DNA from: Gammaproteobacteria bacterium
GTDB lineage: Bacteria; Pseudomonadota; Gammaproteobacteria; SZUA-140
NCBI GenBank assembly: GCA_021648525.1
Contig: JAKISP010000021.1
Coordinates: 1 to 61,194 of the forward strand
Length of the DNA: 61,194 bases
Direction: 5' to 3'
Every line of letters begins with the position of its first letter. Within the stretch, counting starts at the first letter, position 1. Made by a program: the position numbers and the translations under genes. The notes beneath the pieces were generated by a model. That model saw nothing but the letters and a program-made list of their open reading frames with translations, was not told the DNA's origin and searched no databases. This document shows positions 14,429 through 21,487 of the stretch, one piece after another.

Positions 14429-15277
14429 ATGCCGACACACTTAATCGCCCCCCTTCTCCTGCTACTTACGCTAACCGGCTGTGGCAGCGCTGATCATGAC
14501 AACCATAAGGCTGGTGCGCATAACCATGGAGATGGCATGGAACATGACCATAGCGGTGATGATGAACATGTCGATCGCTCATCACATGTCGTCAACTTCA
14601 ACGAGAATAATGAACTCTTCCTGCAATACGAAACATTAGTAGCGAAACGTGATGCCGTTTTCCTCGTACACATCACTGATCTCACCCATTACACCCCCAT
14701 TCCCGGCGGTTTTATCACAATCATCCTTTCAGGGGGGGGCGTGCCCGATGAAATTTTCAGCGGCAAACGCCCTGTTCGTGATGGTATTCACATTGAGGTG
14801 GCACTGCCGCAATACGCAGGCGAACGCCAACTATCACTTCGCTTCGAAACTGACACCACGCAAATCACCCACGACTTAGGCAAGATCATCGTCTACCCAG
14901 ACTACGCTAGCTCAAAAAACAGTGCCGCACGCCTCATCCCGGAGAATGCCATCTATATTGAAAAAGAAGCACAGTGGAAAACGGGGTTAATCATCCAGGC
15001 ACCCACCATCGATAAACAACAACTGACACTGCCGGCCTCAGCCATTCACCAGAATAATAATGAAAAATTAATATATGTTATGAGTGGTGCTGAATTTTTT
15101 GAGCCCAGAAAAGTCACCACAGGTGAAGCCCATCATGGCCGGGTAACCATCCTGTCTGGGGTCACAGCAGATGAATATGTCGTCATTAAAGAAGGTCGTG
15201 CGCAGCTGTCTGATGACAGGAGCACCCCACTGGAAATGCCCGGCCATAATGATGACCTATCTGCTCACGACCATTAA
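14429..15277 (+). CDS. Histidine-rich lipoprotein resembling a shortened RND efflux adaptor
   Basis: A 282-residue predicted lipoprotein: signal peptide with lipobox LTGC, lipidated Cys18, then a segment (about 20-55) rich in His and Asp that could bind metal. Residues 57-130 resemble the N-terminal domain found before some CzcB/CusB-type adaptors (ELFLQYETLVAKRDAVFLVH). Residues 160-270 resemble the adaptor core start (EAQWKTGL) and its membrane-proximal end (EFFEPRKVTTGE, VTILSGVTADEYVVIKEG). The barrel-sandwich and helical hairpin normally between them are missing. No RND pump or outer-membrane channel gene is nearby. A run of eight G lies at 14732-14739. It could be a periplasmic metal-binding protein. 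Confidence 0.6.
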   Translation: MPTHLIAPLLLLLTLTGCGSADHDNHKAGAHNHGDGMEHDHSGDDEHVDRSSHVVNFNENNELFLQYETLVAKRDAVFLVHITDLTHYTPIPGGFITIILSGGGVPDEIFSGKRPVRDGIHIEVALPQYAGERQLSLRFETDTTQITHDLGKIIVYPDYASSKNSAARLIPENAIYIEKEAQWKTGLIIQAPTIDKQQLTLPASAIHQNNNEKLIYVMSGAEFFEPRKVTTGEAHHGRVTILSGVTADEYVVIKEGRAQLSDDRSTPLEMPGHNDDLSAHDH

Positions 15278-15586
15278 ATGCATAACAGCTAAGCGCTTAA
15301 TTAAAACCTTTGCACAAGCAGGGATTTTATTCTCTGGTCAAGCAAAAGCACACGGAATGACGAAGTTTGTAACTATCAATGACCGATATCAGTACGCCTA
15401 TATCACCGCTAGAGGTCAAATGAACAATCGTACGAAGGTATCTAAGTAATACCTTCGTTCTTGACAGAAACCAGCCAAATAGTTAACTTGAATTTCATAT
15501 GGCTATTCGTAATGTCAAAAACATGCAAAAATTTCACTTATACTTTGAGCTGTAGCCATGAAAAATAAATCTTAAGGGAACTAACA
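15278..15586. other. Intergenic region before the GMC operon
   Basis: About 310 bases with no convincing gene. An open frame ends at 15449 but overlaps the lipoprotein gene and resembles nothing I know. The right part is AT-rich and should hold the promoter of the downstream three-gene unit. Confidence 0.5.
15432..15458 (+). terminator. Hairpin after the lipoprotein gene
   Basis: A perfect 10-bp inverted repeat (acgaaggtat and ataccttcgt) with a 7-base loop lies 155 bases past the lipoprotein stop codon. Only a short T-rich stretch follows, so it may be a weak terminator or a transcript-stabilising hairpin. Confidence 0.5.
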
Positions 15587-18500
15587 TTGAACAAGCTTTC
15601 GTCTCATATCGAACAGATTAAACAACACTACACCGTAGTCGTGATTGGTTCTGGTTACGGCGGTGGCATCTCGGCATCACGCATGGCCCGAGCAGGACAA
15701 TCCGTCTGCGTACTTGAGCGTGGCAAAGAATTCCTGCCCGGTGAATTCCCTGATACATTAGCCGAAGCTGGCGCCGAAGTTCAGGTAGACGCCGGTGAAA
15801 TTCACCTTGGCAGTGAAACCGGGCTTTACAATCTACAAATCAATGATGACATCAACGTATTGACCGGCTGCGGCCTGGGCGGCACTTCATTGATTAATGC
15901 CAGCGTCTTAATCGAATCAGACCCGCGTATCTTTAATGACCCTGCATGGCCACGCGACTTTGTCAACGATGTGGAGACCTCACTTAAAGACGGCTATCAA
16001 AAGGCGCGCACCATGCTAGGTAGCACCACTTATCCCGATGGTAACAACGGCTTTCCAGTGCTTAAAAAGACCGAGGCAATGCGCCAATGCGGTAAAGCGA
16101 TGGGCGTCGAAACCAGACTAACGCCGCTAGCAGTTAACTTTGAAATACATGTCAATGGCGTCAACCATGTCGGTGTTGCGCAAGCCCCCTGTAACCTTTG
16201 TGGTGACTGTACCACTGGCTGTAATTTCACCGCCAAAAACACCACCCAGATGACCTACCTCCCTGACGCTACAAACCACGGCGCTGAAATTTTTACTCAG
16301 ACCAAAGTCAGTCACCTCTCTCGCAAAGATGACCACTGGGTGGTTCATTACGCAGTCAGCAATAACGGCAGCGATGCCTTTGATGCACCGGATCAATTTG
16401 TACATGCCGATATTGTGGTGCTTGCGGCAGGTACACTAGGCTCAACTGAAATCATGCTACGCTCAAAGGAACGCGGCCTTGCAACATCTGATAAAATTGG
16501 CGAACGCTTTTCCGGTAATGGCGATGTGCTCAGCTTTGTCTACAACTGCGACCAGGAAATTAACGGCATAGGACGTGGTAGCCGTGAGCTAGATGCCGAC
16601 AACCCGGTTGGCCCCTGCATCACATCAGTCATCGATACCCGTACCAGCGCTGATAATTACAAAGATGGCATGACCATCGAAGAAGGCAGCCTGTCAGGCG
16701 CCATGGCACCACTATTACCCAGTACCTTTTCAAAGCTCGCAGCCATCTCAGGCAAAGACTCAGATAGTGGCATAATGGATTTTCTCGCTGAAAAGAAACG
16801 TAGCATCGAAAGTTTGCTGCGCGGCGCGTATCATGGCGCACTAGACAACACCCTCACTAATCTGGTGATGAGCCACGATAGCGCATCCGGCCGTATACGA
16901 CTAAAAGAAGATAACCTCTGTATCGAGTGGCCAGGCATCGGCAATGAAGCGATCTTTGGCAAGGTCAATGATACACTCGAATCAATGAGCAAAACCCTTG
17001 GTGGTACTTACGTCAAAAACCCCATCAGCCACGACCTGATGGGCAATGACCAGGTAACTGTTCATCCACTCGGTGGTTGCTGCATGAGTGACGATGCCAG
17101 TAGTGGCGTGGTCAACCATAAAGGGCAGGTTTACTCATCAAGCAGCAGCAACGCCGTTTATGCTGATCTGTATATCGCAGATGGTGCAATCATACCCACC
17201 GCCATCGGCACCAACCCACTGCTCACCATCAGCGCAATTGCCGAACGCAATGCCAAACTCATGGCCAGCGAACGCGAATGGAGTTTCGATACAGAGCTCC
17301 CTTCTCGCCCAGCCAACGGTGCAGTGATCACGGTGGCCAAACCCGGCATCCAGTTTACTGAAACCATGACTGGCTTTGTCACGCTAGACCCGAAAGTTGA
17401 TTACGAGCAGGGTTTCGATCGGGGCAAACAGAACAACACCTCGTTCGAATTCACCCTCACGGTAGTCTCTCAGGATCTTGATGCGATGTTAACGGACAGC
17501 AACCATCAGGCAGCTATTTACGGTATTGTGAAAGCGCCGCTGTTATCACCCACCCCTCTCACAGTCACCGAAGGCGTGTTTAATCTATTGGTTAAAGATG
17601 CCGAAATCGTTGATACCCGTCGCATGGATTACAACCTGACCATGACCGCAGAAAATGGTGACGTGTTTTACATGGAAGGTCATAAAATTATTCATGATGA
17701 CCCCGGCTTTGATATGTGGAAAGATACCACCACGCTTTTTGTCACAGTAACAACAGCTAAGGCCGATCCTTCAACCGCTATCGGCCGCGGCATCCTTGAA
17801 ATCACTCCAGTTAACTTTGCCAGACAGCTCACCACGATTAAAGTACCCAATGTTGAAAGCAATACCGACAGGCTCAAATATATCGCTCGCTTTGGTGCCT
17901 TCTTTGCAGGTGGGGTATTTGATATCTTTGGCGGGGTTGCCACCGGCCTTAACTACTTCTCTGAGGAGAATCAGCCACGTAAACGACGCCCACTGGCAGC
18001 ACCAGTGCCGTCTCTGCATCACGTGGTAACTGAAGATGAGGTATCGATTCGCCTCACCCGCTATCAGGGTGGTAATAAAGGGCCGGTGATTCTTTCTCAC
18101 GGCCTCGGCGTCTCCAGCAAGATTTTTTCCACCGACACACTCGACACCAATCTGCTCGAATACCTGATCGCCCATGGTTATGACGTATGGCTACTCGATT
18201 ACCGCGTGAGTATCGAACTAGCAGCATCACAAACGGCCTCAACAGCAGATGAAGTTGCGCAATACGACTACCCTGCTGCCGTTGCCAGAGTAATTGAAGT
18301 GACTGGCAAAGAGTCAGTACAGATGGTCGTTCATTGTTACGGCGCCACCACCTGGACCATGTCGATGCTAGGTGGACACCTTAAAAACGTGCGTTCAGCA
18401 GTCGTCTCACAGATATCAACGCATATAAAAGTACCGTTACTGAGCAAAATCAAAACGGGCCTTTATGTGCCAGAGCTATTAGATCAGCTGGGTATTGATT

Positions 18501-19018
18501 CGCTTACCGCCTACACCGCTAAGGAGTCCAGCTGGCAAGATAAGCTGTTAGACAAGGCACTGAAGCTCTACCCTATCCAGAAAGAAGAGCAGTGCAAAAA
18601 CCCCGTCTGTCGCCGCGTGACATTTCTATATGGCCAGCTTTACGAGCATGACCAGCTCAATGTCATCACCCATGATAATCTGCATGAACTGTATGGTGTT
18701 GCCAACATGCGTTCGCTGGAACATTTAGCCATCATGACGCGTAAAGGGAATATTACCGACGCGGATGGAAATAACAGCTACCTGCCTCATCTTGATCGTA
18801 TGGCACTACCGATCACCTTTATCGTTGGCGAAGAAAATGAATGCTTTCTGCCAGAGGGCCTCGAAAAAACGTATCAAACACTGAGCGATAGAAATGGTGC
18901 GTCGCTTTACGGTTTTCATAAAATCCCTGACTACGGCCACATCGACTGTATACACGGGAAAAATGCACATCAGGATGTCTATCCACATATTCTCAGGCAA
19001 CTAGAAGCGACACTGTAG
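15587..19018 (+). CDS. GMC oxidoreductase fused to an alpha/beta hydrolase
   Basis: An 1143-residue two-enzyme protein. Residues 15-570 form a GMC flavoenzyme of cholesterol-oxidase-like type: dinucleotide motif GSGYGGG (21-27), HPLGG at 493-497 and the GTNP active-site loop with Asn543. A four-cysteine motif CxxCxxCxxxC (Cys202, 205, 208, 212) resembles a 4Fe-4S ligand set; I believe related actinobacterial GMC proteins share it. After a linker domain (about 580-790), residues 820-1143 form an alpha/beta hydrolase whose nucleophile elbow reads VHCYGA, with Cys917 where serine is usual. No signal peptide is visible. The start is TTG with Shine-Dalgarno aaggga 7 bases upstream. It probably oxidises a sterol-like or other hydrophobic alcohol and cleaves an ester or thioester; the substrate is not known. 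Confidence 0.85.
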   Translation: MNKLSSHIEQIKQHYTVVVIGSGYGGGISASRMARAGQSVCVLERGKEFLPGEFPDTLAEAGAEVQVDAGEIHLGSETGLYNLQINDDINVLTGCGLGGTSLINASVLIESDPRIFNDPAWPRDFVNDVETSLKDGYQKARTMLGSTTYPDGNNGFPVLKKTEAMRQCGKAMGVETRLTPLAVNFEIHVNGVNHVGVAQAPCNLCGDCTTGCNFTAKNTTQMTYLPDATNHGAEIFTQTKVSHLSRKDDHWVVHYAVSNNGSDAFDAPDQFVHADIVVLAAGTLGSTEIMLRSKERGLATSDKIGERFSGNGDVLSFVYNCDQEINGIGRGSRELDADNPVGPCITSVIDTRTSADNYKDGMTIEEGSLSGAMAPLLPSTFSKLAAISGKDSDSGIMDFLAEKKRSIESLLRGAYHGALDNTLTNLVMSHDSASGRIRLKEDNLCIEWPGIGNEAIFGKVNDTLESMSKTLGGTYVKNPISHDLMGNDQVTVHPLGGCCMSDDASSGVVNHKGQVYSSSSSNAVYADLYIADGAIIPTAIGTNPLLTISAIAERNAKLMASEREWSFDTELPSRPANGAVITVAKPGIQFTETMTGFVTLDPKVDYEQGFDRGKQNNTSFEFTLTVVSQDLDAMLTDSNHQAAIYGIVKAPLLSPTPLTVTEGVFNLLVKDAEIVDTRRMDYNLTMTAENGDVFYMEGHKIIHDDPGFDMWKDTTTLFVTVTTAKADPSTAIGRGILEITPVNFARQLTTIKVPNVESNTDRLKYIARFGAFFAGGVFDIFGGVATGLNYFSEENQPRKRRPLAAPVPSLHHVVTEDEVSIRLTRYQGGNKGPVILSHGLGVSSKIFSTDTLDTNLLEYLIAHGYDVWLLDYRVSIELAASQTASTADEVAQYDYPAAVARVIEVTGKESVQMVVHCYGATTWTMSMLGGHLKNVRSAVVSQISTHIKVPLLSKIKTGLYVPELLDQLGIDSLTAYTAKESSWQDKLLDKALKLYPIQKEEQCKNPVCRRVTFLYGQLYEHDQLNVITHDNLHELYGVANMRSLEHLAIMTRKGNITDADGNNSYLPHLDRMALPITFIVGEENECFLPEGLEKTYQTLSDRNGASLYGFHKIPDYGHIDCIHGKNAHQDVYPHILRQLEATL

Positions 19019-19073
19019 CTATCAATACAACAGCACAAAAAACGATACCATAAAATACTCAGGGAGAAACGGA

Positions 19074-20558
19074 GTGAGCAATAAGGATACCAATACCAGT
19101 CAATGGTCACTTGTCGTACAGCGCGTCACCTCAGAGAGTGTGGAAGTATGGGTCGGCACGCTCTTTCCAACGCTTAAAAAACCAGACATTGCACGCGTTG
19201 AGCTAATCCACCCTGATGGTCGCAAACAGACCAGACGTATCACAAAGGATCAATGGCAACAGCCATTTAGAAAACTAAACCAGCGTTTCTTCAAAGTGAT
19301 TAAGTTCAATAATCTTACCCCTGGGAAAAATTATTCGCTGAACTTTATTCGTCGCGTAGAAGCTAATGGAAATGTCATTCCGCAGTCATGGCAGCACCTG
19401 CGTAGCGGTGCCTTTTCAACCCTGCCCAATAGAGTGCCACTTAAAGGCAAAAAACCGTTTACCATTGCGCTCGGCAGCTGTTTCTACAACCATCGCGATG
19501 GTGGACGCGCCGCTGCAGCCTACAAAGCACTTTATCAACGTGGAGCAGATAACGTTCGCCCTGACATCACCTTCTTAACCGGTGATCAGGTCTATCTCGA
19601 TATTGGTTTCGACTCATTATCACTTGTACGCGACGAAATCCGCCAGCGTATCGCCGATGACTACGCACTTCACTGGCAGGCAATGGGCAGCATTCTATGC
19701 AATGGTGGCACCTGGATGCTGCCGGATGATCATGAATTCTGGAACGACTACCCATTTTACAAATCAGCCATTCCTCAACTTCAGGCACTACGTCTGGGCT
19801 ACGTACGTAAAACATGGGATGCCGCCGCGACCGATGCGGTCAATAATATTCAGCGAAGCAAGCCTTTCGAAACCTTCAACATTGGTAAAGACCTATCAGT
19901 CTGCATCGCCGACTTACGTTCATTTAGAGATGAAAATGGCTTTACCAGCACGTCGGTTCTTAACAAAATCAAAAAGTGGGCTCACGAGCTACGTTCACCA
20001 GGCATCTTTGTTGCACCACAACCCTTTATCGTCGAAGAAAACGATACCGAAAAAAACCTGCTGAGTTACAAACAACAGTATGCTGGGCTTTTGCAGGCAT
20101 TCTCTGTTAGCGGACACGATATTGTACTGATGAGCGGTGATGTTCATTTTGGCCGAATTGCCACCACGCAACTCGGTAACGAAGCGAAAGGACCGCGCTT
20201 AATAGAAATAGTCGCCTCACCGATGTCAAACCTGACCTATTTAAATGGTATTGCGACAGACAAACCAAAATCAAAACCCATTAAATTTCCAGCACCTGAA
20301 ATCTGTCAATTGAATAACTGGAAACCCGCAAAAGTCACTTACAATAAGCTCTTCCAGGTCAGTACAAAAAAAGGCAACATCTTTTCTGCCTACCCAAAAA
20401 TAAGAACACGCGAGCATTTCATGACGATCAGCTTTAGCCGTAATACCACTGGCACCATTAATCTCAGTGCCAATGCGTGGCGTATTCGTGAAATTAAAGG
20501 GCCTAAAATGCTACCTGTAAAAGACTTTGATCGCACCTTTACCTTTAAACTAAAATAA
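19074..20558 (+). CDS. PhoD-like metallophosphatase/phosphodiesterase
   Basis: A 494-residue protein of the alkaline phosphatase D superfamily. Metal-site motifs are GSCFYNH near 137, FLTGDQVYLD near 165, PDDHEFWNDYP near 220 and LMSGDVHFGRI near 355. PhoD enzymes cleave phosphate mono- or diesters, including phospholipid or teichoic acid bonds. Unlike classic PhoD it has no Tat or Sec signal, so it is probably cytoplasmic. The start is GTG with agggag upstream, 55 bases after the GMC gene; the membrane protein gene follows after 5 bases. The substrate cannot be read from the sequence. Confidence 0.85.
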   Translation: MSNKDTNTSQWSLVVQRVTSESVEVWVGTLFPTLKKPDIARVELIHPDGRKQTRRITKDQWQQPFRKLNQRFFKVIKFNNLTPGKNYSLNFIRRVEANGNVIPQSWQHLRSGAFSTLPNRVPLKGKKPFTIALGSCFYNHRDGGRAAAAYKALYQRGADNVRPDITFLTGDQVYLDIGFDSLSLVRDEIRQRIADDYALHWQAMGSILCNGGTWMLPDDHEFWNDYPFYKSAIPQLQALRLGYVRKTWDAAATDAVNNIQRSKPFETFNIGKDLSVCIADLRSFRDENGFTSTSVLNKIKKWAHELRSPGIFVAPQPFIVEENDTEKNLLSYKQQYAGLLQAFSVSGHDIVLMSGDVHFGRIATTQLGNEAKGPRLIEIVASPMSNLTYLNGIATDKPKSKPIKFPAPEICQLNNWKPAKVTYNKLFQVSTKKGNIFSAYPKIRTREHFMTISFSRNTTGTINLSANAWRIREIKGPKMLPVKDFDRTFTFKLK

Positions 20559-20563
20559 AGTTT

Positions 20564-21487
20564 ATGGACAAAGAAAACACACAGCAACCTGAATCGCAAC
20601 ACGTCACAAGCCTTAATGGTTTTTTAAAAGATGTGATGCGCCTCGCTGTTTTTGCCGCTGAAAGCGGACAGCTCTCAGATGATATTCAGATGGATGAGTT
20701 GTATCGTATGTGGGAGATCAAAATCACTAAAAGGGAGATGCTTGCTGACGATGACATCGCCTATCTACAACACTGCTATCAAATACTCAGTATTCAACTG
20801 GCACCTACGACAGCTATTAGCTTACGCGCCACTGAAAACAAACAGATGAACAGTGGCCTCAGCCACATGCATACCGATGCCGGCAGGCATGTGCGAAATA
20901 TGTGGATTTGGTCGTTTGTCATTCTAGCAACCATTGTCGGCATCAACATCTACCAATACATGTTTGAAATGGCTGGCCCAACAATAGCACAGGAAAATCT
21001 CAGTGCATTTAATATCGCCAATTATATCTACACCTTTATTATCGACCTGACCCCATTTATGTACGGTGCCTTTGGTGCCTGTATTTTCATATTACGCCAG
21101 GCAGAAGAGCAGTTACGAGAACGCACCTTCGACCCAAGAAGACTGCCCGAATATCGAAACCGACTGGTACTCGGTACCCTTAGCGGTGGCGTCATCGTAC
21201 TGCTATATAGCAGTGGTGGCTCAGAGGCCAGTATTAAAATCACAGAAGCAGCGCTCGGCTTTATCGGTGGCTATAGCATCGACCTGCTCTTTTCACTGCT
21301 AGACCGTATCGTCAACACCCTCAAACCAGCAGAGAAAGTAACCAGAATCACCTCACCTCCACCCATTATATCAAGCATAAATCGCCCTCCACTAAAAAAG
21401 GGTGATAAAGAGAATTCACCACAATTAGTCCCGGTCATGAATAAGGAAAGAGATAGCCGGGTTGAAAAGCACTTAAATAAACCCTAG
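20564..21487 (+). CDS. Four-helix membrane protein of unknown function
   Basis: A 307-residue protein I do not recognise. The first 105 residues are polar and probably cytoplasmic. Hydrophobic segments lie at about 112-134, 155-178, 206-222 and 228-248. The last 60 residues are polar and proline-rich. The gene begins 5 bases after the PhoD-like stop codon, so the two are almost surely cotranscribed, and its function is presumably linked to the oxidoreductase/hydrolase and the phosphatase, perhaps as membrane anchor or sensor (inference). Confidence 0.75.
   Translation: MDKENTQQPESQHVTSLNGFLKDVMRLAVFAAESGQLSDDIQMDELYRMWEIKITKREMLADDDIAYLQHCYQILSIQLAPTTAISLRATENKQMNSGLSHMHTDAGRHVRNMWIWSFVILATIVGINIYQYMFEMAGPTIAQENLSAFNIANYIYTFIIDLTPFMYGAFGACIFILRQAEEQLRERTFDPRRLPEYRNRLVLGTLSGGVIVLLYSSGGSEASIKITEAALGFIGGYSIDLLFSLLDRIVNTLKPAEKVTRITSPPPIISSINRPPLKKGDKENSPQLVPVMNKERDSRVEKHLNKP

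Follow-up and report, generated by a model that had tools for sequence, protein, structure and literature searches.

Here we describe a gene for a three-domain fusion protein, together with the two genes that follow it, in the contig of a gammaproteobacterium of the SZUA-140 lineage (assembly GCA_021648525.1, contig JAKISP010000021.1; the whole stretch of 61,194 nucleotides that was analyzed is referred to below as the window, and its genome as G000). The fusion protein combines a cholesterol-oxidase-like GMC oxidoreductase domain, a middle domain of ~200 residues and an acid-lipase-like alpha/beta hydrolase domain, and, as judged from its homologues, it is a member of a widespread and uncharacterised family represented in Proteobacteria, Leptospira and Bacteroidota and, with its parts on separate genes, in Chloroflexi and Nitrospiria. 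We propose, with somewhat less than even confidence, that it might function in the cytosol as a lipid-alcohol dehydrogenase fused with a cysteine-dependent domain that acts as an acyltransferase or thioesterase, and that phosphoester hydrolysis might be an adjacent step. The three genes and the parts of the fusion protein lie at the following positions of the window.

15587-19018, forward strand: fusion gene, 1143 codons, TTG start
15626-17281, forward strand: GMC oxidoreductase domain, residues 14-565, from Pfam and PDB profile matches
16190-16222, forward strand: C-x2-C-x2-C-x3-C motif, Cys202/205/208/212, proposed iron-sulfur (Fe-S) site
17342-17935, forward strand: middle domain, residues 586-783, predicted eight-stranded beta barrel with C-terminal helices
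18014-19006, forward strand: acid-lipase-like alpha/beta hydrolase domain, residues 810-1140
18335-18337, forward strand: Cys917, at the nucleophile position (Ser in gastric lipase), invariant
18836-18838, forward strand: Asn1084, at the catalytic-acid position (Asp in gastric lipase), aligned to GGKD
18938-18940, forward strand: His1118, at the catalytic-His position, aligned to NHLDFIW
19074-20558, forward strand: PhoD-like metallophosphoesterase gene, 494 codons, GTG start
20564-21487, forward strand: membrane-protein gene, 307 codons, ATG start, no Pfam family

The N-terminal domain passes the Pfam cut-offs for both halves of the GMC fold, namely GMC_oxred_N (PF00732; 61.5 bits against a cut-off of 23, 1.3e-16) and GMC_oxred_C (PF05199; 42.3 bits against 24.6, 1.5e-10), and its best PDB profile matches are cholesterol oxidase (3e-53) and the flavin adenine dinucleotide (FAD)-dependent glucose dehydrogenase 6a2u (4e-20). 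A glycine motif of the FAD-binding type, VIGSGYGG, is situated near the N-terminus of the fusion, and almost every homologue retains HPLGG and G-x-N-P blocks; the predicted catalytic pair of the window protein is His493 and Asn543. We infer that this domain would bind FAD and oxidize an alcohol.

A preliminary description of this DNA, made from the letters and open reading frames, had drawn attention to a ferredoxin-like cysteine motif and to Cys917 in the place of a serine nucleophile, and both are exactly as described (CNLCGDCTTGC at residues 202-212 and HCYGA at 916-920). Neither varies freely among relatives, with Cys917 present in 27/27 homologues and all four motif cysteines in 29 of the 31 that cover the motif in a multi-phylum alignment. 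The two exceptions, both from Actinobacteria, lack the second cysteine alone and so keep a C-x5-C-x3-C pattern, which is also the spacing of Cys202, 208 and 212 of the fusion. In the FAD glucose dehydrogenase of B. cepacia, the profile relative 6a2u mentioned above, the [3Fe-4S] cluster is liganded by Cys212/218/222 with this same C-x5-C-x3-C spacing (PMC6719666). As a bridge to such Fe-S GMC dehydrogenases we used GMC proteins whose genes neighbour a gene of the small-subunit family PF13618; in several of them cysteines occupy the same columns of the alignment, and one has exactly the C-x2-C-x2-C-x3-C form. Given the shared columns and the spacing of the [3Fe-4S] ligands, we suggest that the motif is probably an Fe-S site of this known sort with one extra ligand; the fourth cysteine makes a [4Fe-4S] cluster possible. 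On plasmid lbp2 of Leptospira borgpetersenii a second, separate GMC protein that has this four-cysteine motif too (CLRCAECEFGC) is encoded after the fusion gene (L064:9105-10523; this gene is missing from the PLSDB gene table).

The C-terminal domain scores 24.3 bits against Abhydrolase_1 within the whole protein (cut-off 25.8) and 28.8 bits when searched alone, while a profile built from it aligns with human gastric lipase from position 13 to 346 (E 1.2e-15) and also matches lysosomal acid lipase and the gastric lipase of the dog. The predicted structure, of which the mean predicted local distance difference test score (pLDDT) is only 64 with a better core, likewise has the gastric lipase of the dog (7.8e-14) as its best Foldseek match, followed by lysosomal acid lipase (1e-12), and Cys917 is modelled between the strand at 111-116 and the helix at 118-128 (domain numbering). 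At the positions aligned with the Ser-Asp-His triad of the acid lipases the fusion has Cys-Asn-His. Cys917, Asn1084 and His1118, along with His916, Gly919 and Asp1120, are shared without exception by 25/25 sequences from several phyla, including hydrolases encoded as separate genes, and two further homologues agree with this conserved set; the weaker matches outside the family have a serine or, as is typical of PHA synthases, a GxCxG box. A cysteine accompanied by asparagine and histidine recalls the arrangement in papain. Such a set suits acyl-enzyme chemistry on thioesters, and by this analogy the hydrolase would act on thioesters via an acyl-enzyme. The triads given in a survey of alpha/beta hydrolases from 2024 (PMC11878206) do not include Cys-Asn-His.

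Between these two domains, both of which the preliminary description had correctly recognized, lies the middle domain (~586-783) that its two-domain scheme had overlooked. No Pfam family matched it in our scan, and iterated hidden Markov model (HMM) searches detected it in 30 homologous proteins; it also occurs attached to patatin proteins and encoded by a gene of its own. An AlphaFold2 model (mean pLDDT 82, predicted TM-score 0.77) has eight strands that read as a barrel. Foldseek searches with this model returned nothing under 1e-3 (best E 0.011), and a VIA comparison gave Z up to 9.7 over ~106 residues with diverse small barrels, some of them designed, which is near the level that the tool calls common. 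Considering its fold class and the company it keeps, the middle domain is probably a barrel that holds a hydrophobic ligand.

Orthologues of the same length are found within the genus at 92-93% identity, in other gammaproteobacteria at 68%, 49% and 47%, and in Persicobacter, Leptospira, Bernardetia, Azospirillum and Rhizobium at 43-49%; in these last five genera and in Variovorax full-length fusions are borne on large plasmids. In Chloroflexi and Nitrospiria the parts occur as adjoining separate genes, GMC-middle followed by the hydrolase, and on the Nitrospiria contig these are succeeded by genes for an acetoacetate-decarboxylase-like protein and a patatin-middle domain protein. This split gene order shows that the domains form one functional set even when unfused, and the patatin points to lipids. 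The acetoacetate-decarboxylase-like family recurs in the clusters of the fusion family (L045:11477-12346, identified as PF06314 by Pfam; L057:6708-7580, L058:246-1208 and L072:13600-14646, grouped with it by phmmer), and in L045, L057 and L058 its gene adjoins that of the Cys-type hydrolase. At two other loci (L051:12255-14787 and L052:4500-7103) genes for a response regulator and a hybrid histidine kinase adjoin the fusion. For the L051 pair the top-scoring NCBIfam models, ErdR-like and NahK/ErcS-like, relate to the control of ethanol oxidation, though the scores lie far under the cut-offs.

We then considered the association of the family with phosphoesterases. Proteins of ~1900-2090 residues with a C-terminal PhoD domain are encoded in G161 (detected by Pfam) and in G177, G057 and two Ensifer (detected by iterated HMM searches). 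Elsewhere, the metallophosphoesterase is encoded by a gene of its own that adjoins or overlaps the fusion; such genes fall into three groups, L051/L052/L068, L066/L072 and L071 (L051 and L068 identified by PF00149, L052 by its 74% identity to L051, L066 by its annotation as a metallophosphoesterase and L072 as its relative). These groups have no significant similarity to one another, and all three carry GNHD and further motifs of the DxH/GDxxD/GHxH type. As at least three mutually unrelated metallophosphoesterase families thus abut or are fused to homologues of the fusion, a functional link of the fusion to phosphoester hydrolysis appears likely.

The PhoD-like protein of the window contains the motifs GSC (134), GDQVY (170), DDHEFW (218) and SGDVH (354), and scores 22.5 bits against PF09423, for which the cut-off is 27. 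Outside the genus only one of 339 genomes of the class, G339, has a full-length relative; this protein is 44% identical and exceeds the PF09423 cut-off at 30.9 bits. G339 also carries the fusion, with the PhoD-like gene not adjacent to it. We regard this co-occurrence, together with the recurrent phosphoesterase neighbours, as suggestive. No hydrophobic segment was found in the PhoD-like protein, in keeping with the earlier remark that it lacks a signal peptide, or by hydropathy in the fusion protein. The membrane protein, which had been described as an unrecognised four-helix protein, indeed has four main hydrophobic segments (~113-129, ~146-176, 201-217 and 230-246) and a weaker peak at 71-87. 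Its gene adjoins that of the PhoD-like enzyme also where the fusion is absent, and its distant homologues (G071, G197, G051 and G195) occur in unrelated contexts. The possibility that it serves as an electron-transfer partner was considered and, with the homologues so placed, found no support.

The arrangement of the three genes, with gaps of 55 bp between the fusion and the PhoD-like gene and 5 bp between the latter and the membrane-protein gene, is exactly as first reported, and all three lie on the forward strand. It is confined to one genus. In five genomes (G000, G011, G012, G013 and G016) the PhoD-like gene directly follows the fusion, and in all of these except G013 (L040) the membrane-protein gene comes next, so that four genomes have all three genes, one of them (G012) with a frame-broken membrane-protein gene (L063:6612-7525). 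In G015 (99% complete), G017 and G018 the order is HtpX, a 282-codon gene, the PhoD-like gene and the membrane-protein gene, with no fusion at the site and none found by searches elsewhere in these genomes. Conservation of the three genes together, on which the preliminary description had staked its pathway, therefore fails both at these empty sites and in L040, where the membrane gene is lacking, and we reject a conserved three-gene operon. What survives of the proposed pathway is the link between fusion and phosphoesterase, which gains from the recurrent pairing in other lineages; the membrane protein probably belongs with the PhoD-like enzyme and is tied to the fusion by the shared operon alone. 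G017 also contains another copy of PhoD, which a frame break divides in two (L107:1944-3402) and which is followed by an intact membrane-protein gene.

Alignment of the intergenic regions revealed one further element at this locus.

15458-15489, forward strand: promoter-like block, TTGACA at 15461-15466, 17-nt spacer, TAACTT at 15484-15489

In the window this block reads TTCTTGACAG ... CAAATAGTTAACTT. The TTCTTGACAG core is kept in 8/8 genus genomes compared, with one difference in G013, and matches the window once where 0 matches are expected. The block is absent from the output of a generic sigma-70 scan because its second hexamer agrees at only 3/6 positions. At the empty sites the block precedes the PhoD-like gene and at the filled sites it precedes the fusion; the simplest reading is that the fusion would be the first gene in a pre-existing PhoD operon. 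Its position between the conserved promoter-like block and the PhoD-like gene suggests that the three genes are probably co-transcribed. Just 5' of the TTG start of the fusion is an AAGGGA that is kept in most of the genus. The GC content at third codon positions is 0.52 in the fusion and 0.46-0.54 in neighbouring genes, and codon GC thus gives no indication of a recent import. In the genus tree a single clade of fusion carriers is not rejected (approximately unbiased test, p-AU 0.136), and the tree does not decide between gain and loss.

These considerations bear on the principal alternative, to which we accord a modest probability: that the fusion merely sits in an older locus of the PhoD-like enzyme and the membrane protein, the co-transcription being incidental and the pathways separate. 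The contiguity of the PhoD-membrane pair with its upstream gene in G015, G017 and G018, which lack the fusion altogether, accords with such a history, as do two facts from other genomes: in G071 the membrane-protein homologue is encoded on another contig, and in G339 the PhoD-like gene lies far from the fusion. Less easily accommodated are the position of the fusion 3' of a conserved promoter-like block and 55 bp before the PhoD-like gene, an arrangement kept in five genomes, the pairing or fusion of unrelated metallophosphoesterases with homologues in other lineages, and the fact that the sole full-length PhoD relative outside the genus comes from a genome that also bears the fusion. Several observations nevertheless weigh against our proposal of a dehydrogenase-thioesterase with an allied phosphoesterase. 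The PF13618 small subunit, which belongs to the known Fe-S GMC dehydrogenases, has 0 matches in G000. The window PhoD-like protein is only weakly similar to the fused PhoD domains (best direct single-sequence match 1e-5), so that the pairing would involve a class of enzyme and not one family. The homologues of G071 and G339, the one at a particular G177 locus and those of Leptospira, Bernardetia, Rhizobium, Chloroflexi and Nitrospiria showed no phosphoesterase neighbour, and the tally of phosphoesterase neighbours is a raw count without a background expectation. The ligand-binding role of the barrel, finally, is drawn from its fold class only.

Two further alternatives concern the chemistry itself, and we consider each of them improbable. 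The fusion could be a sterol or hopanoid enzyme, uniting cholesterol-oxidase-like and cholesteryl-ester-hydrolase-like activities, as might be supposed from its best PDB relatives, cholesterol oxidase and the gastric and lysosomal acid lipases. However, the lipase triad is altered, and the NCBIfam cholesterol oxidase model NF058674 gives 160.2 bits where its equivalog cut-off is 850. Moreover, PF13249, the N-terminal domain of squalene-hopene cyclase, was not found in the genome of the window or in two fusion-bearing relatives, and there is thus no evidence that these organisms synthesize hopanoids of their own by the squalene-hopene cyclase route; uptake of foreign sterols would be compatible with this absence. 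A sterol or hopanoid role is accordingly less likely than the lipid-alcohol dehydrogenase reading. Scarcely better placed is the notion that the hydrolase domain is catalytically dead and supports the GMC domain as a scaffold or covers it as a lid. Relative to the parent lipases, the nucleophile and the catalytic acid have both been replaced, as might be expected of an inactive domain, but the six residues named above would hardly remain invariant over several phyla, the separate-gene form included. Furthermore, cysteine is the active nucleophile, as part of a Cys-Asp-His triad, in the alpha/beta hydrolases PHA synthase and dienelactone hydrolase (PMC5509742, PMC11878206).

Under the dehydrogenase-thioesterase proposal, the GMC domain would oxidize the hydroxyl of a lipid-like alcohol and, via the Fe-S cluster, hand the electrons on to some acceptor that is not oxygen. 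The barrel may hold the hydrophobic substrate or position it between the two active sites, and the hydrolase, forming an acyl-cysteine intermediate, would be a thioesterase or acyltransferase and not a lipase. The PhoD-like enzyme would supply or consume a phosphoester form of the same substrate, and the membrane protein, as a companion of PhoD, may have no direct role in the chemistry of the fusion. A more far-reaching and rather doubtful version is that the family constitutes a new class of bifunctional lipid enzyme, in which an Fe-S flavoprotein dehydrogenase hands its product via the barrel to a papain-like Cys-His-Asn thioester acyl-transferase of the acid-lipase fold, with unrelated phosphoesterases having been recruited repeatedly.

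Two further features of the locus lie upstream of the promoter-like block. The 282-codon gene (14429-15277), which is always upstream of the locus in the genus, has a lipoprotein-like start and a His-rich N-terminal stretch but no Pfam family, and its product might bind metal. Between this gene and the block, at 15305-15323, is AACCTTTGCACAAGCAGGG, a degenerate copy of a repeat, GAGACCTTTGCACNAG, with 21 copies in the genome (contigs C15, C22, C54, C55 and C72), in several places as inverted pairs ~139 bp apart; G012 has a longer GAGACCTTTGCACNAG-type copy with an inverted end at the same place. The repeat looks like a family of miniature inverted-repeat transposable elements (MITEs).

Each domain of the fusion can be placed in, or close to, a known fold class, and our literature search found no description of the combination, of a phosphoesterase with a GMC protein, or of Cys-His-Asn alpha/beta hydrolases. 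The invariance of Cys-Asn-His across several phyla offers a clean test of the conversion of a lipase fold to cysteine chemistry. Similarly, the sister genomes that lack the fusion at this site and the recurrence of unrelated phosphoesterases provide a testable handle on an anonymous pathway that spans Leptospira, rhizobia, Bacteroidota and marine gammaproteobacteria.

Among known systems, the GMC-type cholesterol oxidases (1b4v, 4u2l and 1coy) share with the fusion a related GMC sequence and the HPLGG and GxNP blocks with their His/Asn pair; in contrast to them, the fusion has the cysteine motif, which the aligned cholesterol oxidases lack, two further domains and no apparent signal peptide. 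The direct-electron-transfer FAD glucose and fructose dehydrogenases (6a2u and 7w2j) resemble it in GMC fold and in ligand spacing and differ in that the fusion has a fourth cysteine at +3 and a genome without the PF13618 subunit. With the gastric and lysosomal acid lipases (1hlg, 1k8q and 6v7n), which give a full-length profile match and the top structural matches to its hydrolase domain, the comparison breaks down at the catalytic residues, which are Cys-Asn-His and not Ser-Asp-His, and in the setting, which is predicted to be cytosolic and is fused to or in an operon with a flavoprotein. The PhoD-like phosphatases (PF09423) have their motif set and a weak profile match in common with the window protein, which represents a narrowly distributed subfamily below the cut-off and without an apparent signal peptide. 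PHA synthase (PhaC; 9knj) and dienelactone hydrolase likewise use a cysteine nucleophile within an alpha/beta hydrolase fold, and the former is a weak profile match of the hydrolase domain (4e-4); however, the class III PhaC model TIGR01836 gives 16.7 bits against a cut-off of 365, placing the domain outside the PHA synthases, and in the fusion family an asparagine takes the position that aspartate occupies in both of these enzymes.

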